Below are positions 18,230 through 36,027 of a DNA stretch of 59,693 bases, in pieces. Source of the stretch: an uncultured bacterium (GTDB taxonomy: Bacteria; Pseudomonadota; Gammaproteobacteria; Burkholderiales; CAIKXV01). The position numbers and the translations under genes are program-made. The stretch is from contig CAIQON010000282.1 of the NCBI GenBank assembly GCA_903873475.1, forward strand, positions 1 to 59,693, read 5' to 3'. Numbering within the stretch: the stretch's first letter is position 1; each line of letters begins with the position of its first letter. Below the pieces are notes generated by a model. The model worked only from the letters and a program-made list of their open reading frames with translations. It was not told the DNA's origin and made no database searches.

Positions 18230-19300
18230 ATGGCCGATTCACAACTGCAGTCTGCGCTGGCGCACTGGGCGCCGCGCCTGATCGCCAATGGCATTCCGCT
18301 GACCGACTTCCAGGACGTCACCGGCGCCCTCGCATCCTGGAACGACTGGTGCAAGGCTTGGGTCGCCCGCGGCGACGTGCATGACGCGCTCGGCGAGGCC
18401 GACCTCGCCGCCGGGCATCGCCTGTCGGCCGGTGAGCACTTCTCGCGCGCCGCCGTCTGCCATCACTTCGCGAAGTTCGTGTTCGTCGATGACCTCGATC
18501 AGATGAAGTGGGCGCACATGAAGGCGGTGGCATCGCGCGCGAAGGCGCTGCCGTTGATCGACCCGCCCGGCGAACGGGTCGAGATTCCCTACATGGGCAC
18601 CACGCTCAAGGGTGAACTGCGCAAGCCGGCCGGCAGCGTGCGCCCGCCGGTGCTGGTGATGTGCATGGGCCTCGATTCCTGCAAGGAAGAGATGGACGCC
18701 TACGAGCGCAACTTCCTCGAGCGCGGCATCGCGACGCTGGCGTTCGATGGCCCGGGGCAGGGCGAGGCCGAGTACGAGTTCCCGATCCGCGGCGACTACG
18801 AAGTGCCGGTGAAGGCGGTGTTCGACTGGCTCGAGACGCGCAGCGACATCGACCATGGCCGTGCCGCCCTGTGGGGCGTCTCGCTCGGCGGCTACTATGC
18901 GCCGCGGGCCGCGGCTTTCGAGAAACGGGCGAAGGCCTGCATCGCGCTGTCCGGTCCGTACAACATGGGCGCCAACTGGGACGGGCTGCCTGAACTCACC
19001 CGTCGTGCGTTCCAGGTGCGTGCCAAGTGCGCGACGCCCGAGGAAGGCCGCAAGGCGGCGCATACGCTGTCGCTCGAGGGGCTGGCGTCGAAGATCACCT
19101 GTCCGTTGTTCATCGTCGCCGGCAAGCAGGACCGTATCATCCCGTGGCAGGACGCGGAGCGGCTGGCCCGCGAGGCGGGCGGCCCGGTCGAACTGCTGAT
19201 GGTCGAGGATGGCAACCACGTGGTGAACAACCGCGCGTACCGCTACCGCACGCAGACCGCCGACTGGATGGCGGCTCGGCTCGGCCTTCCGAAGCGATAG
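18230..19300 (+). CDS. alpha/beta hydrolase, 2,6-dihydroxypseudooxynicotine hydrolase / FrsA-like (paralog A)
   Basis: VLVMCMGLDSCKEEMD, AFDGPGQGEAEYEFPIRGDYE, WGVSLGGYYAPRAAA, GKQDRIIP, GNHVVNN. Confidence 0.82.
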   Translation: MADSQLQSALAHWAPRLIANGIPLTDFQDVTGALASWNDWCKAWVARGDVHDALGEADLAAGHRLSAGEHFSRAAVCHHFAKFVFVDDLDQMKWAHMKAVASRAKALPLIDPPGERVEIPYMGTTLKGELRKPAGSVRPPVLVMCMGLDSCKEEMDAYERNFLERGIATLAFDGPGQGEAEYEFPIRGDYEVPVKAVFDWLETRSDIDHGRAALWGVSLGGYYAPRAAAFEKRAKACIALSGPYNMGANWDGLPELTRRAFQVRAKCATPEEGRKAAHTLSLEGLASKITCPLFIVAGKQDRIIPWQDAERLAREAGGPVELLMVEDGNHVVNNRAYRYRTQTADWMAARLGLPKR

Positions 19301-23935: not shown

Positions 23936-25114
23936 ATGCCCGCCGCCATCCCCGATTCCCTGTATCCCCGTTTCTCCGATGCCGAGTTCGAGCGGCGTCA
24001 TGCCCGTGCGCGCATCCTGATGTCCGGCGAGGGCCTCGCGGCGCTCGTGGTGTACGGCCACTCGGGCATGTCGCGCCACATGCAGGCCGACGTGCTCTGG
24101 CTGTCGGGCTTCTTCGGCAACCGCAACAACTACGTGGCGATGGTCGACGGTGGCGCGCCGGTGCTGTTCGCGCAGTCGCACAACCATGTGCCCAACGCGC
24201 GCGAGATGGCGTCGATCGAGACGCGCTGGGGCGGCGCCGATTCCGCGGCCACGATCGCGCGCTTCCTGCTAGACGCCGGCACTGCACCCGGCGTGCTCGG
24301 CTGGGTCGGCGACGTGCCGGCCGCCGACTGGCTCACCTGGCAGAAGCTGCTTCCCGGCTGGACCTTCCGCGAGGTGACGCCGAAGTTCCGCAACCTGCGC
24401 CAGGTGAAGAGCGACGAAGAGATCGAATGGCTGCGCCTAGGCGCACAGCTGACCGATGCCGCGCTGCAGGCGCTGATCGACGGCGCGCATGCCGGGCTGC
24501 GCGAGGCGCAACTCGGTGCGATCGTCGAATCGGCCGGCTTCGCCGCCGGTGGCCTGCCGCACCTGTGCTACCTGTCCTCCGGCGGCCAGGACGAGGCTTC
24601 GGCCTGCGTGCCCAGGCAGAACCTCACGCAGCGCGTGCTGCGCAAGGGCGACGTGGTGAACAACGAGATCAGCATCAGCCACTGGGGCTACTCGGGGCAG
24701 ATCCAGCGGCCGATCTTCATCGGCGAGGCGCCCGGCCCGCGCTATGCGTCGCTGTGCGCGGTCGCGCTCGAGTCCTACCAGCGCGGGCTCGAGGTGCTGC
24801 GCGCGGGCGCCACCAGCGACGACCTGCTCGACGCGGCCGAGGTGATCCACGAGCGCGGCTTCACCATCAACGACTCCTTCCTGCACGGCTTCGGCGTCGG
24901 GCTGCTGCCACCGAACCTCGGCACCCGGCGCACCGCCAAGGGCCGCTCGATAGCCCCGTTCGTGTTCGAGAAGAACATGTGCGTGGTGCTGCAGCCGAAC
25001 ATCGTCACCGAGGACGAGCGCGCCGGCGTGCAGCTCGGCAACCTCGTGCGCATCACCGAGCGTGGCGCAGAGAACCTGCATTCGGTGCCGCTGCGGTTTT
25101 TCGTCACCGGCTGA
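23936..25114 (+). CDS. M24-fold (pita-bread) protein, creatinase/prolidase-like, metal ligands not conserved
   Basis: VVYGHSGMSRHMQADVLWLSGFFGNRNNYVAM N-domain; KSDEEIEWLRLGAQLTDAAL linker; HGFGVG in C-domain. Confidence 0.8.
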   Translation: MPAAIPDSLYPRFSDAEFERRHARARILMSGEGLAALVVYGHSGMSRHMQADVLWLSGFFGNRNNYVAMVDGGAPVLFAQSHNHVPNAREMASIETRWGGADSAATIARFLLDAGTAPGVLGWVGDVPAADWLTWQKLLPGWTFREVTPKFRNLRQVKSDEEIEWLRLGAQLTDAALQALIDGAHAGLREAQLGAIVESAGFAAGGLPHLCYLSSGGQDEASACVPRQNLTQRVLRKGDVVNNEISISHWGYSGQIQRPIFIGEAPGPRYASLCAVALESYQRGLEVLRAGATSDDLLDAAEVIHERGFTINDSFLHGFGVGLLPPNLGTRRTAKGRSIAPFVFEKNMCVVLQPNIVTEDERAGVQLGNLVRITERGAENLHSVPLRFFVTG

Positions 25115-26256: not shown

Positions 26257-27330
26257 ATGGCAAGGGATCCCCGCGTGCAATCGGCGATCGACCACTGGTC
26301 GCCGCGATTCATCATCAATGGCGTGCCGTCGGCCGACTTCGCGGAGGTCACGGCGGCCTGCGAGACCTGGGACGACTGGTGCGCTGCCTGGGGCGAGCGT
26401 GCGAAGGTGCACGAGGCCCTCGGCGAGCAGGCGCTGGCCGACGGCTACCGGCTCTCGGCCGGCGCGCATTTCACCCGTGCGGCAGTCTGCCACCACTTCG
26501 GCAAGTTCCTGTTCGTCAACGACCTCGTGCAGCAGAAGGCCGCCAACATGCGCGCAGTCGAGTGCCGCAACAAGGCGCTGCCACTGATCGATCCGCCGGG
26601 CGAACGTGTCGCGATTCCTTACGAAGGCAAGGTGCTCTACGGCAACCTGCGCAAGCCGAAGGGCGTCGAGCGGCCGCCGGTAGTGGTCATGTGCATGGGG
26701 CTCGATTCGACGAAGGAGGAGATGGACGACTACGAGAACCGCTTCCTCGCGCGCGGCGTGGCGACCCTGCCGTTCGACGGGCCGGGGCAGGGCGAGGCCG
26801 AGTACGACTTCCCGATCTGCCCCGAGTTCGAGCGGCCGGTGAAGGCGGTGGTCGACTGGATCGAGACGCGTGCCGACCTCGATGCGGGTCGCATCGGCAT
26901 CTGGGGCGTGTCCTTCGGCGGTTACTATGCGCCGCGCGCCGCCGCGTTCGAGAAGCGGATCAAGGCCTGCGTGTCGTTGTCCGGTGCCTTCCAGCGCAAG
27001 ACGACGTTCGAAGGCCGGCCGGTGATCAACGTCGAGGCGTTCCGTGTACGCTCCGGCAGCAAGGATCTGGAAGAGGCGGGGCAGGTCGCGGCAAGGGTCA
27101 GCCTCGCCGACTGCGCGAAGGACATCACCTGCCCGATCTACATCCTGGCCGGCACGAAGGACAGGCTGACCGGGGTCGACCAGGCCAGCAAGCTCGCCGC
27201 GGCGGTGTCCGGGCCGGTGACGCTGTCGATCATCGAGGGCGGCAACCACGTGGTGAACAACTACTGGTACACCTACCGGGACCAGACCGCCGACTGGATG
27301 GCGACGCAACTCGGGGTGCCGAAGCGCTGA
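26257..27330 (+). CDS. alpha/beta hydrolase, 2,6-dihydroxypseudooxynicotine hydrolase / FrsA-like (paralog B)
   Basis: co-linear and highly similar to 18230-19300 product: VVVMCMGLDSTKEEMDDYE, FDGPGQGEAEYDFP, WGVSFGGYYAPRAAAFEKR, GNHVVNN. Confidence 0.82.
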   Translation: MARDPRVQSAIDHWSPRFIINGVPSADFAEVTAACETWDDWCAAWGERAKVHEALGEQALADGYRLSAGAHFTRAAVCHHFGKFLFVNDLVQQKAANMRAVECRNKALPLIDPPGERVAIPYEGKVLYGNLRKPKGVERPPVVVMCMGLDSTKEEMDDYENRFLARGVATLPFDGPGQGEAEYDFPICPEFERPVKAVVDWIETRADLDAGRIGIWGVSFGGYYAPRAAAFEKRIKACVSLSGAFQRKTTFEGRPVINVEAFRVRSGSKDLEEAGQVAARVSLADCAKDITCPIYILAGTKDRLTGVDQASKLAAAVSGPVTLSIIEGGNHVVNNYWYTYRDQTADWMATQLGVPKR

Positions 27331-27376: not shown

Positions 27377-28738
27377 ATGGCCAAGAAGCTGAAGAAGGTC
27401 GAGCCGCAGCAGGTCAAGGCGGCGGACATCCCGGTCAAGGCGCGGCGCGGCAAGTCGCTGGCCGAGACCATGATGGACTACCCGGACCCCGACCACCGCT
27501 GGGACCGCCCGCTGCAGGCGCCCGGCCGGATGCAGGTCGACTTCGAGGAGCGGGTCAACTTCCAGCGGCTGCACACCTACCGCCTGGCGCGCACCAAGGC
27601 CGCGCTCGCGCGCAGCGGCATGGGCGCGATGCTCTGCTTCGACCAGTACAACGTGCGCTACACCACCAGCACGGTGATCGGCGAGTGGGCGCGCGACAAG
27701 CTGACCCGCTGGTCGCTGGTCACCGGCAATGGCGAGCCCTACATCTGGGATTTCGGTTCTGCGGCCCGGCACCATCGCATCTACTGCCCGTGGCTGCCGA
27801 CCAACCATGTGTTCGCCGGCAACGTCGGACTGCGTGGCGCGATCAACCCCGCGGTGGGGCTGTTCGAGGAGGCGGCGAAGGAGATCTTCGACATCCTGAA
27901 GCAGGAAGGCGTGGCGGACATGCCGCTGGGCATCGACGTGGTCGAGCCGCCGTTCCTGTTCGCGCTGCAGAAGCTCGGCCTGAAGATCGTCGACGGCCAG
28001 CAGATGATGCTCACGGCGCGCGAGATCAAGAGCCATGACGAGATCACCCTGCTCAACACGGCCAGCGCCATGGTCGATGGCGTCTACCAGGATATCTTCG
28101 AGGCGCTCAAGCCGGGCGTGCGCGAGAACGAAGTGGTCGCCATGGCCACCAAGCGCCTTTACGAAATGGGTTCGGACTGCGTCGAGGCGATCAACGCGAT
28201 CGCCGGCGAGCGTTGCAGCCCCCATCCGCACAACTTCACTGACCGGCTTATCCGCCCGGGCGACCAGGCCTATTTCGACATCATCCAGTCGTACATGGGC
28301 TACCGTACCTGCTACTACCGCACGTTCACGGTGGGCAGCGCGACCCGTGCGCAGCAGGACGCCTACAAGCGTGCACGCAGCTGGATGGATGGCGCGATCT
28401 CCATGCTCAAGCCGGGCGTGAGCACCGACAAGGTCGCCGCCGCCTTCCCGAAATGCACCGAGATCGGCTTCGAGACCGAGATGTCCGCCTTCGGCCTGAA
28501 CTTCTGCCACGGCCTGGGGCTGGGCCTGCACGAGCGGCCGCTGATCTCGCGGCTGAACTCGTTCAAGGATCCGTACGAACTCAAGGCCGGCATGGTGTTC
28601 GCGGTCGAGACGTTCTGCCCGGCGAAGGACGGCGTGTCGGCTGCGCGCATCGAGGAGGAAGTGGTACTGACGCCCAATGGCGCGCAGGTCATCTCCCTGT
28701 TCCCGGCGCAGGAACTGCCGATCGCCAACAAGTACTGA
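27377..28738 (+). CDS. M24 family metallopeptidase-fold protein (DddP/prolidase-like branch)
   Basis: AMLCFDQYNVRYTTSTVIGEWA, AREIKSHDEITLLNTASAMVD, CHGLGLGLHERP, GMVFAVETFCP, EEEVVLTPNG. Confidence 0.8.
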   Translation: MAKKLKKVEPQQVKAADIPVKARRGKSLAETMMDYPDPDHRWDRPLQAPGRMQVDFEERVNFQRLHTYRLARTKAALARSGMGAMLCFDQYNVRYTTSTVIGEWARDKLTRWSLVTGNGEPYIWDFGSAARHHRIYCPWLPTNHVFAGNVGLRGAINPAVGLFEEAAKEIFDILKQEGVADMPLGIDVVEPPFLFALQKLGLKIVDGQQMMLTAREIKSHDEITLLNTASAMVDGVYQDIFEALKPGVRENEVVAMATKRLYEMGSDCVEAINAIAGERCSPHPHNFTDRLIRPGDQAYFDIIQSYMGYRTCYYRTFTVGSATRAQQDAYKRARSWMDGAISMLKPGVSTDKVAAAFPKCTEIGFETEMSAFGLNFCHGLGLGLHERPLISRLNSFKDPYELKAGMVFAVETFCPAKDGVSAARIEEEVVLTPNGAQVISLFPAQELPIANKY

Positions 28739-28757: not shown

Positions 28758-29774
28758 ATGAGTGCCATTCCGAAAGCGAAGAAGCCGGCGTTCGAGATCG
28801 GGCGCGAGACGCGCCTGGACCTGTTCCGGATGCAACTCGAACTGCGCATGACCGAGAAACGCGCGTTCGATCTGTTCCTGCAGAACCTGATCAAGGGCAC
28901 CAGCCACCTGGCCCTCGGGCAGGAGGCGATCGCCGCCGCGTTCGGCGTCGCGATGAAGCCCGACGACTACACCTTCTGCACCTACCGCGGCCATGCGCAC
29001 ACGCTCGCCCGTGGCGCGTCGATGTCGGGCGTGCTGGGCGAGTTGATGGGCCGTGAATGCGGCCTGCTCGCCGGCAAGGGCGGTTCGATGCACCTGACCG
29101 ACGTCGAGAAGGGCGTGATGGGCTCGTACGCGATCATCGGTGCGCACCTGCCGATCGCCGCGGGCGCCGCCTGGTCGGCACAGTACCGCGGCACGAAGCA
29201 GGTGTCGGTGTGCTTCTTCGGCGACGGTACGACCAACATCGGCGCATTCCACGAGGCGCTGAACTTCTCGGTGGTCTGGAAGCTGCCGGTGGTGTTCGTC
29301 TGCGAGAACAACTTCTACATGGAATACACCCCGATCCGATCGGTGACTGCGGTGGATGCGCCGGCCGCCGACCGTGCGTCGGCCTACGGCCTGCCGTCGA
29401 TCATCGTCGACGGCAACGATGCCGACATCATGTACGAGACGGCGATGGCAGCGATCGACCTGGCGCGTGCCGGTGGCGGCCCCTCGCTGATCGAGGCGCG
29501 CACCTACCGCCATTCGGGCCATTCGCGCGCCGACCCGGCGAAGTACCGGCCGGAAGGCGAGCTCGAGGAATGGCTGAAGAAGGATCCGATCCCGACCTAC
29601 CGCGAGCGCCTGCTGCGCCTGGGCTTCTCGGAAGGCACGTTGAAGGGTATCGAGGAAGACACGCAGCGCAGGGTGGACGAGGCGACCGCGATCGCGAAAG
29701 CCTCGCCCACGCCTTCGCTCGACCTGATCGACAAGGATGTCTGGGCAGACGGGAGCACGGCATGGCGGAACTGA
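28758..29774 (+). CDS. thiamine-diphosphate-dependent 2-oxoacid/acetoin dehydrogenase E1 alpha subunit
   Basis: TPP motif GDGTTNIGAFHEALNFSVVWKLPVVFVCENN; HLALGQEAIAAAFG. Confidence 0.9.
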   Translation: MSAIPKAKKPAFEIGRETRLDLFRMQLELRMTEKRAFDLFLQNLIKGTSHLALGQEAIAAAFGVAMKPDDYTFCTYRGHAHTLARGASMSGVLGELMGRECGLLAGKGGSMHLTDVEKGVMGSYAIIGAHLPIAAGAAWSAQYRGTKQVSVCFFGDGTTNIGAFHEALNFSVVWKLPVVFVCENNFYMEYTPIRSVTAVDAPAADRASAYGLPSIIVDGNDADIMYETAMAAIDLARAGGGPSLIEARTYRHSGHSRADPAKYRPEGELEEWLKKDPIPTYRERLLRLGFSEGTLKGIEEDTQRRVDEATAIAKASPTPSLDLIDKDVWADGSTAWRN

Positions 29775-30739
29775 CATATCGCGACGCAGTCGCGGCGGGC
29801 ATCGCGCAGGAGATGCGGCGCGATCCGAACGTGGTGTTCCTGGGCGAGGACGTCGCCCATGCCGGCGGCGTGTTCAAGGCCAGCGTCGGGCTTCTGGAAG
29901 AGTTCGGCCCGCTGCGCGTGCGCGACTGCCCGATCTCCGAGCAGGCCATCCTGGGCGCGGCGATGGGTGCCGCGATGACCGGCCTGAAGCCGATCGCCGA
30001 GATCATGTTCTCCGACTTCCTGGCCGTGTGCTGGGACATCATCGCCAACGAGATGGCGAAGATGCGCTACATGACCAACGGCCAGGTAACCATGCCGGTG
30101 GTGATCCGCACCGCCAACGGTGCCGGCTCGCGCTTCGGCGCGCAGCACTCGCAATCGCTCGAGAACTGGGCGATGACCGTGCCCGGCCTGAAGGTCGTCG
30201 CGCCGGCCTACCCGGCCGACGTGAAGGGGCTGCTCGCCGCCGCGGTGCGCGACGGCAACCCGGTGGTGTTCTTCGAGCAGAAATCGCTCTACGCACTCAA
30301 GGGCGAAGTGCCCGACGGCGAACACTACGAACCGCTGGGCAAGGCGAAGGTGCTGCGCCGCGGGCCCGACTGCACGATCGTCGCGCTCGCCGCGATGGTG
30401 CACAAGTCGATGGACGCGGCCGAGATCCTGAAACGCGACCACGGCATCGACGCGACGGTGATCGACCTGCGCTGCCTGGTGCCGCTCGATACCCAGACCA
30501 TCCTCGCCGAGGTCGCGCGCACCGGGCACCTGATCACCGTCGAGGAGAACCCCCGGCTGTGCGGCTGGGGCGCTGAGATCTCCTCGATCGTCACCGAGGA
30601 ATGCTTCTGGGACCTCGACGGCCCGATCATCCGCATCACCACGCCGCACATCCCGCTGCCAGCGGCCGATGCGCTCGAAGACGCCACGATCCCTTCGGTC
30701 GCGCGCATCGTCGAGACGGTACGTACCCGCCTCGGCTGA
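29762..30739 (+). CDS. 2-oxoacid/acetoin dehydrogenase E1 beta subunit
   Basis: MAELTYRDAVAAGIAQEMRRDPNVVFLGEDVAHAGGVFK; overlaps E1 alpha by 13 bp. Confidence 0.92.
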   Translation: MAELTYRDAVAAGIAQEMRRDPNVVFLGEDVAHAGGVFKASVGLLEEFGPLRVRDCPISEQAILGAAMGAAMTGLKPIAEIMFSDFLAVCWDIIANEMAKMRYMTNGQVTMPVVIRTANGAGSRFGAQHSQSLENWAMTVPGLKVVAPAYPADVKGLLAAAVRDGNPVVFFEQKSLYALKGEVPDGEHYEPLGKAKVLRRGPDCTIVALAAMVHKSMDAAEILKRDHGIDATVIDLRCLVPLDTQTILAEVARTGHLITVEENPRLCGWGAEISSIVTEECFWDLDGPIIRITTPHIPLPAADALEDATIPSVARIVETVRTRLG

Positions 30740-30845: not shown

Positions 30846-32570
30846 ATGCCAATCGCCAGACCCGATACGTCCGTGATCCGCCGAGCCTTTTTCCGTACCA
30901 CTGCGCTGGCCGCCCTGCTGTCGATGGCGGCCGTCGTGCCGCTGCCGGCCTCGGCGCAACCGAAGCCGGACGCCCGGCCAGTGCCCGACACCATCCTGGT
31001 CAACGGGCGCATCGCGACCGTCGATGACCAGTTCCGCTTCGTGCAGGCCCTGGCCGTGTCCGGGCGGCGCATCACCGCCACTGGCACCAGCGCCGACATC
31101 CGGCGGATGGCCGGGCCGTCCACGCGCGTGATCGACCTGCAGGGCAAGACGGTCATCCCGGGCCTGATCGACAACCACTCGCACTGGATCCGCGCGGCGG
31201 AGCACGACGAGCTGCGCTTCGACGGCATCACCTCGCGCAAGCAGGCGCTCAAGCTGCTCGCCGACCGGGTGCGCACGACGCCCGCCGGCGAATGGATCGT
31301 CGTGCTCGGCGGCTGGTCGGAGCAGCAGTTCACCGACGACGAGCGCAGCTTCACCCGCGCCGAGCTCGATGCCATCGCACCGAACCATCCGGTGGTGCTG
31401 CAGGCGATCTACCTGCACAGCACGCTCAACACCGCCGCGCTGCGCGCCGCCAAGATCGACGCCACGACGGCCAATCCGCCCGGCGGCACCATCGAGAAGG
31501 ATGCCGACGGACAGATCACCGGGATGGTGCGTGGTGCCGGCGGCGTGGCCTTCGTCGCGGCGAGGATTCCCCTGAAGGACCGCGATGCCTGGCTCGCCAA
31601 TACGCGCAAGCTGGTACGCGAACTGAGCTCGATGGGCCTCACCGGCTGGATGGACGCCGGTGGCCGCGGCATGACTGCGCGCCACTATGAGCCCTACGCG
31701 GAGCTGGCCCGCCGCGACGAACTCGACGTACGCGTGTTCTGGACCACCATCCGCCAGCCCGCCACGCCGGAGCAGGTCGACAAGGTGGTGGCCGAGATCC
31801 CGACGCTTCGTCCGTTCCAGGGAAACGACTACTTCGACAACGTCGGCTTCGGCGAATCGATGTACGGGCCGGTGACCACCCAGCTGCTGCGCAAGGAAAA
31901 CACCAGGCGCCCCGAGGACATCGCGCAGATGGCGCGCATCGCGCGCGCACTGGCCGAGCGCGGCATCTACCTCAACGCCCACGTCGAGATGGAAGACATG
32001 ATCGATGTCTTCCTCGGCGAGTTCGAGAAGATCCATGCGCAGTCGCCGATCAAGGGCTTCCGCTGGTCGTTCTCCCACCTCGACCAGGTGACCCCGGCGC
32101 AGCTCGACCGGATGAAGCGGCTCGGCATGACGGCGCAGATCCACAGCCGGCCGCTGATCCAGGGCGTGCTGATGCATCGCGTGCACGGCGACCGGGCATG
32201 GGACATGCCGCCGTTTCGTCGCATCCAGGACAGCGGCATCCGCTGGGGCCTGGGTTCGGACGCCACCGCGGTCACCACGTCGAACCCCTTCTACACGCTG
32301 GGCTTCGCGGTGACGGGCAAGATGGTCGGTGGCCACGCCGTGAATCGCCAGACGATCAGCCGCGAGGAGGCGCTGATCGCGCATACGCGCAACAACGCAT
32401 ACATCGTGTTCCAGGAGTCGAACCTCGGGTCGCTGGTGCCCGGGAAGTACGCCGACCTCCTGGTGCTCGACAGGGATTACTTCCGAGTCGCCGCGGATGA
32501 CATCAAGGACCTCAAGCCGGTGATGACGATGGTCGGTGGCCGGGTGGTGTACGAGGCGGCGAGGCAGTAG
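30846..32570 (+). CDS. exported amidohydrolase family protein (YtcJ-like)
   Basis: signal with twin Arg (IRRAFFRTTALAALLSMAAVVPLPASAQ); DTILVNGRIATVDD; GLIDNHSHW; GLGSDATAVT. Confidence 0.87.
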   Translation: MPIARPDTSVIRRAFFRTTALAALLSMAAVVPLPASAQPKPDARPVPDTILVNGRIATVDDQFRFVQALAVSGRRITATGTSADIRRMAGPSTRVIDLQGKTVIPGLIDNHSHWIRAAEHDELRFDGITSRKQALKLLADRVRTTPAGEWIVVLGGWSEQQFTDDERSFTRAELDAIAPNHPVVLQAIYLHSTLNTAALRAAKIDATTANPPGGTIEKDADGQITGMVRGAGGVAFVAARIPLKDRDAWLANTRKLVRELSSMGLTGWMDAGGRGMTARHYEPYAELARRDELDVRVFWTTIRQPATPEQVDKVVAEIPTLRPFQGNDYFDNVGFGESMYGPVTTQLLRKENTRRPEDIAQMARIARALAERGIYLNAHVEMEDMIDVFLGEFEKIHAQSPIKGFRWSFSHLDQVTPAQLDRMKRLGMTAQIHSRPLIQGVLMHRVHGDRAWDMPPFRRIQDSGIRWGLGSDATAVTTSNPFYTLGFAVTGKMVGGHAVNRQTISREEALIAHTRNNAYIVFQESNLGSLVPGKYADLLVLDRDYFRVAADDIKDLKPVMTMVGGRVVYEAARQ

Positions 32571-32615: not shown

Positions 32616-33938
32616 ATGGAAATCATCATGCCGCAACTCGGCGAGACAGTCGCCGAGGGCACGGTCAGCAAGTGGTACAAGAAGGTCGGTGACTCGATCA
32701 AGGCGGACGAGACGCTGTTCGACGTGGAGACCGACAAGGTCAACACCGAGATCCCGTCGCCGGTTGCCGGCGTGCTGACCGAGATCCGCGTGGCCGAAGG
32801 CGTGACCGTCAAGGTTGGCGTGGTGCTTGCGGTGGTCACCGAGGCCGGCGCTGCAGCGCCAGCAGGGGCTGCTGTCGCGGCCCCTGCGCCCGCCGCGGCA
32901 GCCACGACGGTTGCCGTGCCGGTGGCTGGCGCCTGGGCGGCACGGCCAGCCGCGGTGCCGGCGAAGGCCGACGGCAGCCTGAGGCTGTCGCCGGTCGTGC
33001 GCAAGCTCGCGGCAGAACACGGTATCGACCCGTCGCAGGTTTCCGGCACCGGCCGCGACGGCCGCGTCACCCGCGAGGACATGCTGGCCTTCGTCGAGGC
33101 ACGAAAGTCGAGCGCGGTACCTGCGATGCCGGTGGTTGCCGCCTCGCCCGTGGCTGAGCCTGCGGTGCCCCGGCCGGCGGCAGCGCCGGTCGCGCCGTTC
33201 ACCGCCCCGCCTGCCTCCACCGGTCCGTCCGAGCGCATCCGGCTCAACCCGATCCGCAAGCGCACCGCGGAACATCTCGCGCGCGCGTGGGTCACCGTGC
33301 CGGCGGTGCTGCAGGCGATCGAGGTCGACTTCCACAAGGTCGACGAGGCACGCAAGCTGGCGGGCAGCGGCTGGAAGGCGCGTGAAGGCTTCTCGCTCAC
33401 CTACCTGCCGTTCATCGCGCGCGCGGTGTCGATCGCGCTGGCGAAGTTCCCGCGCCTGAATTCGAGCGTCGATGGCGACGAACTCGTGCTGCACAAGCGC
33501 ATCAACCTCGGCATCGCAGTCGACATGAACTTCGACGGCCTGATGGTGCCCGTGGTGAAGGACGTGCCGTCGAAGTCGCTGCCGCAGATCGCGCGCGAGG
33601 TGAACGACCTCGCGCAGCGTGCCCGTGCGAACCGGCTGAAGCCGGATGACCTGTCGGAAGCCACCTATACGCTGTCCAATTCCGGCGTGTTCGGTACGGC
33701 ATTCACCGCACCGATCGTCAACGTGCCGCAGGTTGCGATACTGTCCACCGACGGCGTGCAGAAGAAGCCGGTGGTGATCGAAGGGCCGGCCGGCGACAGC
33801 ATCGCGATCCGCCCGGTCGGCATGCTCGCGCAATGCTTCGACCATCGTGCGGTCGATGGCGCGTACTCGGCGGCCTTCCTGAAGGAAGTGAAGACCGTGC
33901 TCGAAACCCGGCACTGGGTACAGGACCTCGAAGCCTGA
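32616..33938 (+). CDS. dihydrolipoamide acyltransferase (E2) of 2-oxoacid dehydrogenase complex
   Basis: lipoyl domain ETDKVNTEIPSPVAGVL; E3-binding-like SPVVRKLAAEHGIDPSQVSGTGRDGRVTREDM; catalytic FDHRAVDG. Confidence 0.93.
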   Translation: MEIIMPQLGETVAEGTVSKWYKKVGDSIKADETLFDVETDKVNTEIPSPVAGVLTEIRVAEGVTVKVGVVLAVVTEAGAAAPAGAAVAAPAPAAAATTVAVPVAGAWAARPAAVPAKADGSLRLSPVVRKLAAEHGIDPSQVSGTGRDGRVTREDMLAFVEARKSSAVPAMPVVAASPVAEPAVPRPAAAPVAPFTAPPASTGPSERIRLNPIRKRTAEHLARAWVTVPAVLQAIEVDFHKVDEARKLAGSGWKAREGFSLTYLPFIARAVSIALAKFPRLNSSVDGDELVLHKRINLGIAVDMNFDGLMVPVVKDVPSKSLPQIAREVNDLAQRARANRLKPDDLSEATYTLSNSGVFGTAFTAPIVNVPQVAILSTDGVQKKPVVIEGPAGDSIAIRPVGMLAQCFDHRAVDGAYSAAFLKEVKTVLETRHWVQDLEA

Positions 33939-35094: not shown

Positions 35095-36027
35095 ATGGCA
35101 ACTGAAAACCTCAAGCAACACAAGCTCGGCTGGATCGGCATCGGCCGCATGGGCTATGCGATGGCTGCGAGGCTGGCGAAGGTCGGCTGCGACCTGTCGG
35201 TCTGGAACCGCACGAAGTCGAAGGCCGAACCCCTGAAGGAATACGGCGCGAAGGTCGTCGACAACCTCACCGACCTCGCCGGCTGCGACATCATCTTCAC
35301 GATGGTCTCCACCGGCGACGACGTGAAGGAGGTGCTGTACGGCCCGAACGGCGTGATGTCGAAGGGCGGCAAGCCGAAGCTGGTGATCGACTCCACCTCG
35401 ATCTCGCTGGAGGCCTCGGCCGAGATCCGTGCCGAACTCGCCGCGCATGGCGTGCAGATGCTGGCGGCGCCGGTCTCCGGCAACGCCAAGGTGATCAAGG
35501 CCGGCAAGCTGACCATCGTCGCCTCCGGCCCGCAGGCCGCGTTCGACATGGCGCTGCCTTACCTCGACGTGGTCGGTGCCGGCGTGTCGTATGTCGGCGA
35601 AGGCGAACTCGCGCGCATCGCGAAGATCTGCCACAACGTGATGCTCGGCGTTGTCATCCAGAACCTGTGCGAGATCACCGTGCTGGCCGAGAAGGCCGGC
35701 ATGAAGCGCCACCAGTTCCTCGACTTCCTGAACAAGAGCGTGATGGGCTCGACCTTCACGAAGTACAAGACCCCGGCGCTGACCAACCTCGATTTCCACG
35801 TGACCTTCACGCCGGAACTGCTGAGGAAGGACCTCGACCTCGGGCTGTACGCGGCGAAGGCGCTCGAGGTGCCGATGCCGACCACCACGATCACCCGCGA
35901 CCTGGTGCAGACGCTGATCGGCCACGGCTACGACGAGGACTTCTCGCAGTTGCTGCTGCTGCAGGCGAAGGCGTCGGGCGTCGAACTGAAGCCGGAGAAC
36001 GTCGAGGTGGGTGACGGGCTGTCCTGA
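35095..36027 (+). CDS. NAD(P)-dependent oxidoreductase (6PGDH/3-HIBDH-like)
   Basis: LGWIGIGRMGYAMAARLAKVGCDLSVWNRTKSKAEPL; VIDSTSISLEASAEI. Confidence 0.87.
   Translation: MATENLKQHKLGWIGIGRMGYAMAARLAKVGCDLSVWNRTKSKAEPLKEYGAKVVDNLTDLAGCDIIFTMVSTGDDVKEVLYGPNGVMSKGGKPKLVIDSTSISLEASAEIRAELAAHGVQMLAAPVSGNAKVIKAGKLTIVASGPQAAFDMALPYLDVVGAGVSYVGEGELARIAKICHNVMLGVVIQNLCEITVLAEKAGMKRHQFLDFLNKSVMGSTFTKYKTPALTNLDFHVTFTPELLRKDLDLGLYAAKALEVPMPTTTITRDLVQTLIGHGYDEDFSQLLLLQAKASGVELKPENVEVGDGLS

Follow-up and report, generated by a model that had tools for sequence, protein, structure and literature searches.

One branch of the M24 superfamily, represented in the window (the whole stretch of 59,693 nucleotides analysed here) by the protein M24b, carries a cysteine in place of one of the metal-binding aspartates, an exchange that has a single origin and is fixed throughout our sample, with the other four ligands invariant. 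This branch, hereafter Cys-M24, is uncharacterised and departs from the canonical ligand set of the superfamily, whose five-residue metal site is usually cited as a textbook example of one that does not change. The best explanation, and one that we hold to be fairly probable, is that M24b is a functional M24B enzyme with a D/C/H/E/E metal site that serves as a hydrolase or lyase in small-molecule catabolism. The gene and its ligand codons, matched to those of the E. coli methionine aminopeptidase (EcMetAP; ligands D97, D108, H171, E204 and E235, with H79 and H178 close by), are as follows:

27377..28738, + strand: the Cys-M24 enzyme (M24b), 453 aa with an ATG start, made up of a DddP-like N-terminal domain and an M24 'pita-bread' domain (PF00557, residues 226-432)
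28277..28279, + strand: Asp301 codon GAC, the first metal-ligand Asp (D97 of EcMetAP)
28310..28312, + strand: Cys312 codon TGC, at the place of the second metal-ligand Asp (D108 of EcMetAP)
28508..28510, + strand: His378 codon, the His ligand (H171 of EcMetAP), coordinate from residue number and alignment
28607..28609, + strand: Glu411 codon, a Glu ligand (E204 of EcMetAP), coordinate from residue number and alignment
28652..28654, + strand: Glu426 codon, the last Glu ligand (E235 of EcMetAP), coordinate from residue number and alignment

Membership of the superfamily is clear from a score of 122 bits against PF00557, for which the Pfam curated cut-off is 23. The codons, read directly, give a spacing of exactly 11 residues from D301 to C312, and in HMMER alignments with solved M24 proteins D301 falls on the first ligand Asp, C312 on the second (the D of YNSDMTRT in 5cdl), H378 in the His ligand column and E411 in the first Glu column. 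Codons and alignment thus bear out the first-pass annotation, which had described an Asp ligand followed 11 residues downstream by Cys, and the His and both Glu ligands that it took to be intact can be named as H378, E411 and E426. It had also placed a Glu ligand within EEEVV without specifying which; the Glu is there, and the alignment points to E426, the fifth ligand, opposite the Glu of the canonical vRiED motif. Set against the canonical D, D, H, E, E, every member has Cys at the place of the second Asp. A shift of the Asp ligand to another place was rejected, since C312 fell in the Asp column in each of several alignments made with various D-type proteins; a sequencing or assembly error was likewise rejected, as the Cys recurs in many independent assemblies and is encoded by both TGC and TGT. 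Two further cysteines of M24b, C280 (28214-28216) and C414 (28616-28618), likewise do not vary among 84 bacterial orthologs; haloarchaea have Thr in place of C280, and actinobacterial and haloarchaeal members have Trp or other residues in place of C414.

Cys312 is found in 84/84 bacterial orthologs (about 60-98% identity), three of which belong to other classes or families (60-66% identity), and Asp at this position, which was sought as the mark of a random substitution, occurs in none of the 84. A genome collection holds 482 DNA stretches encoding relatives, and among the best 80 of the 482, drawn from Betaproteobacteria, Rokubacteria, Acidobacteria and others, the Cys is present in 80/80, and D, H and both Glu are retained. 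It extends further to plasmid orthologs at about 50-62% (Phaeobacter, Tritonibacter, Pacificitalea, Streptomyces, Paenarthrobacter and Rhodococcus) and to haloarchaeal plasmid relatives at about 35%; outside Pseudomonadota the clade is known from contig matches in the genome collection and from plasmids, and no close relative was found among viral contigs. Within the window's own order, a search of 300 genomes recovered the gene in 25, six of which have in addition a second Cys-M24 paralog (~33% identity, GYKSCYYRTY), again with a D/C/H/E/E site. When 91 M24 proteins were aligned, Cys was seen in 21/21 clade members, down to 32% pairwise identity, and in 0/70 of the proteins outside the clade, 64/70 of which have Asp in this column. 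As the Cys is fixed in all orthologs examined and absent from 70 other M24 proteins, a random substitution can be rejected.

In maximum-likelihood trees a single branch separates all the Cys proteins from the rest (100/100; 100/96; 99/94), and they remain one clade when column 312 is masked (99/97). The nearest Asp-type protein is encoded by a Haloarcula gene, L115, which is sister at 97/91 on a long branch; the next group out is a DddP-like clade, which unites with the Cys clade in a 100/100 group. A single Asp-to-Cys change suffices under parsimony, and from this together with the one-branch trees the change appears to have happened once, with no reversion in the sample, so that the tree of Cys-bearing M24 proteins proposed in the first-pass annotation resolves as a coherent single clade. 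The Haloarcula gene (L115:5884-7230, on a plasmid) is 30% identical to the Cys clade and has Glu at column 427 as well, so that the Glu-Glu pair appears to be older than the Cys. These observations bear on the view that the exchange is near-neutral, in which M24b would be an ordinary dinuclear M24 hydrolase, conventional in metal and chemistry, with Cys replacing Asp, perhaps helped by E427. That residue is Glu in 21/21 members of the clade, most other M24 proteins having Asp there, as such help might entail, but its presence in the Asp-type sister means that it was not acquired along with the Cys; moreover, a position that never reverts to Asp inside the clade and is never Cys in the 70 proteins outside it is unlike a freely exchangeable one, and we regard the near-neutral view as rather unlikely.

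The residues invariant across the 21 clade members are D301, G308, Y309, C312, Y313, Y314, R315, T316, H378, E411, E426 and E427, whereas H283 and H385, the catalytic-type His positions, differ between subfamilies, being replaced by Asn, Trp or Tyr. Because the five ligand positions are invariant while H283 and H385 vary, the alignment is most simply read as a metal site that stays constant as the substrates, and the residues facing them, change, although invariance alone is no proof of metal binding. We infer that the site binds metal and that Cys312 is among its ligands, probably furnishing one thiolate. The invariance of Cys312 would also suit a nucleophile, which counts against its reading as a thiolate ligand. 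In an enzyme of that kind, which would be metal-independent, Cys312 would act as nucleophile or acid/base on a scaffold that works without metal in creatinase; creatinase does have the same fold, and Cys is a good nucleophile that is invariant in the clade. Metal-poor M24 proteins, however, drop several ligands together, as does a second M24 protein of the window:

23936-25114, + strand: M24a, with E/Q/H/Q/G at the ligand columns

In the Cys clade, in contrast, no member has lost any of the other four ligands, so that the multiple ligand loss of the metal-free creatinase type is absent, which makes metal independence unlikely. The ligand-poor site of M24a is itself consistent across loci (L003, L004, L012, L025, L029, L031, L035, L036, L038, L039 and L041, with an own-genome copy at L102) and, being conserved, is not random decay; these proteins form a separate metal-poor M24 clade. 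A further M24 type of unusual kind, reading N/A/H/E/H across the ligand columns (GYYTALERT), occurs at L171 and L179. The earlier suggestion that two divergent M24 enzymes act in one pathway fared weakly: a close M24a (>60% identity) lies near the Cys-M24 gene in 3/80 loci (L003, L004 and L012) and a ~35% relative in 11 further loci, but most clusters have no M24a in reach, in a count over 80 loci that includes some short contigs.

The predicted fold of M24b agrees with its placement in the tree. An AlphaFold2 model of residues 39-453, built from 55 sequences that included M24a and MetAP rows, has a mean pLDDT of 83.4, with about 85-97 in blocks around the metal site; an earlier AlphaFold model from 35 close orthologs (pLDDT 61), in which the active site was unresolved, was set aside. 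Foldseek searches with the predicted structure return RlDddP as the best match (TM 0.83, 4s01), indicating a whole-length DddP fold, followed by dipeptidases, ectoine hydrolase and creatinase, with Spt16 among the other matches; the nearest solved folds are thus the di-iron DddP and metal-dependent dipeptidases. The match to Spt16, and the existence of M24 pseudoenzymes (PMC3888471), raise the thought of a non-catalytic scaffold or regulator akin to Ebp1/PA2G4 or Spt16, but with four metal ligands and their flanking motifs invariant in the clade, and with Cys-M24 genes repeatedly found in catabolic operons, this is very improbable.

With DddP (RdDddP 4b28, RlDddP 4rzy), M24b shares the whole-length fold, the N-terminal domain and the M24 His and Glu ligands, at about 21-28% identity. 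The DddP ligands are Asp295, Asp297, Asp307, His371, Glu406 and Glu421 (PMC4108388), and where DddP has FDTD...D (Asp295, Asp297, Asp307) M24b has FDII...C, with no Asp at the positions of Asp297 and Asp307; it also lacks Tyr366 and Asp377, the residues proposed to be catalytic, having a Phe near the first and His385 at the second. DddP is also the best NCBIfam match, but at 106.5 bits against an equivalog cut-off of 600 (NF043017). Hence the kinship with DddP raised in the first-pass annotation stands at the level of the clade, through the fold, the best NCBIfam match and the 100/100 group, and does not carry over to DMSP lyase activity: membership of the DddP family was rejected on residues and score, and a DddP-type DMSP lyase, for all that DddP is the closest named family and the closest fold, is hardly to be credited. 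The peptidases of the superfamily (prolidase, aminopeptidase P, methionine aminopeptidase) have the D, H, E, E ligands in common with M24b, whose subfamily also keeps the His matching H178 of MetAP, and differ from it in having an Asp (D108 of EcMetAP) at the place of the Cys. M24b scores far under all curated peptidase cut-offs, and indeed under every curated subfamily cut-off reached, with 66 bits against 630 for the Xaa-Pro dipeptidase PepQ (NF040821) and 58 against 613 for the ectoine hydrolase DoeA (TIGR02993). Creatinase and DoeA, as non-peptidase M24B hydrolases, resemble M24b in fold and illustrate the use of the M24 scaffold in small-molecule catabolism; they differ from it in that sequence similarity is low and that the Cys clade has kept its four other metal ligands.

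A role in catabolism is also suggested by the company that the gene keeps, which in the window includes:

26257..27330, + strand: alpha/beta hydrolase, a full-length relative of 2,6-dihydroxypseudooxynicotine hydrolase
28758..29774, + strand: 2-oxoacid dehydrogenase E1 alpha, following M24b at a distance of about 20 bases
29762..30739, + strand: 2-oxoacid dehydrogenase E1 beta, overlapping E1 alpha
30849..32570, + strand: Amidohydro_3 hydrolase with a hydrophobic signal-like N-terminus, open-frame range with the start codon unsettled
32616..33938, + strand: 2-oxoacid dehydrogenase E2, with lipoyl, E3-binding and acyltransferase domains
35095..36027, + strand: 3-hydroxyisobutyrate-dehydrogenase-like protein (HIBADH-like; NAD_binding_2 and NAD_binding_11), a frequent Cys-M24 neighbour

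The full order runs from Bug-type receptors through an aldo/keto reductase, M24a, a receptor and the alpha/beta hydrolase to Cys-M24, and then through E1 alpha, E1 beta, the amidohydrolase, E2 and a receptor to the HIBADH-like dehydrogenase, the receptors having been identified by eye from sequence. E1 alpha lies immediately 3' of Cys-M24 in 48/75 loci. Where 7 kb is available on both sides (n=35), E1 alpha, E1 beta and E2 are found in 28 loci, the HIBADH-like gene in 26, receptors in 22 and an M24a-like gene in 8. In the window's genome there are just 3 good E1 genes and 12 of HIBADH type, and the chance of presence in a 14-kb stretch is about 1% for E1 and about 4% for HIBADH, figures to be read with the 35 loci being related and not independent.

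The linkage of M24 to E1-E2 or to HIBADH recurs in roseobacters (SDR-M24-E1a-E1b-lipoyl protein-semialdehyde dehydrogenase-E2), Acidobacteria (aldehyde dehydrogenase-HIBADH-E1-E1-E2-M24), Streptomyces (HIBADH-M24-semialdehyde dehydrogenase-E1-E2-flavin reductase-luciferase-like monooxygenase) and Paenarthrobacter (RidA-M24-HIBADH-SDR-lipoamide dehydrogenase), and the second Cys-M24 paralog adjoins HIBADH, Gfo/Idh/MocA and TctA genes. As most Rokubacteria loci and the haloarchaeal copies have other neighbours, with E1/E2 not next door, the E1/E2 link may be lineage-specific. The Amidohydro_3 gene is found in a subset of related clusters. The upstream alpha/beta hydrolase, which aligns over nearly its full length with 2,6-dihydroxypseudooxynicotine hydrolase (2jbw, 4.5e-46), is not in all Cys-M24 loci either, and the likeness is one of sequence that implies no substrate; it is one of two related alpha/beta hydrolases (18230-19300 and 26257-27330, + strand) in a window full of Bug-type receptors. 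On the plasmid of Paenarthrobacter sp. R1, the Cys-M24, RidA and HIBADH genes (L113:7190-11362) lie ~2 kb from sulR, a flavin reductase gene of sulfonamide degradation. Several of the nearest contigs are labelled as 'Bordetella parapertussis' MAGs (L002, L011, L016 and others), yet they derive from environmental assemblies and share their operon with other Betaproteobacteria; the labels look doubtful.

Taken with the conserved site, these neighbourhoods are consistent with a cytosolic M24B enzyme acting on a small organic compound that would be imported by transporters with solute-binding proteins and cleaved in the M24 pocket by metal-assisted water or base, in a reaction that we infer to be hydrolytic or lyase-like. 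Oxidation of the products would then fall to the hydroxyacid or semialdehyde dehydrogenase and to the dedicated 2-oxoacid dehydrogenase complex, placing Cys-M24 upstream of E1/E2. With Cys among the ligands, Zn or Fe(II) would be the favoured metals, as they are in peptide deformylase. The more specific proposal, that a thiolate-ligated Fe or Zn centre, mononuclear or Cys-bridged dinuclear, carries out a reaction new to the pita-bread fold and feeds dedicated 2-oxoacid dehydrogenase complexes within a catabolic route not yet described, is put forward tentatively and is somewhat doubtful as it stands.

Among open-access papers nothing relevant was found on an M24 protein with a Cys ligand or on a Cys-M24 operon. 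Public records annotate these proteins as 'Xaa-Pro peptidase' or 'M24 family metallopeptidase', and a misnomer is thus probably hiding a family of catabolic enzymes together with its pathway. The number of metals that M24 enzymes need is still argued (PMC2807865). In this light, a natural Cys-for-Asp clade reaching from Betaproteobacteria to haloarchaea can be seen as an experiment already set up by nature on which metal the fold selects and what chemistry it performs.
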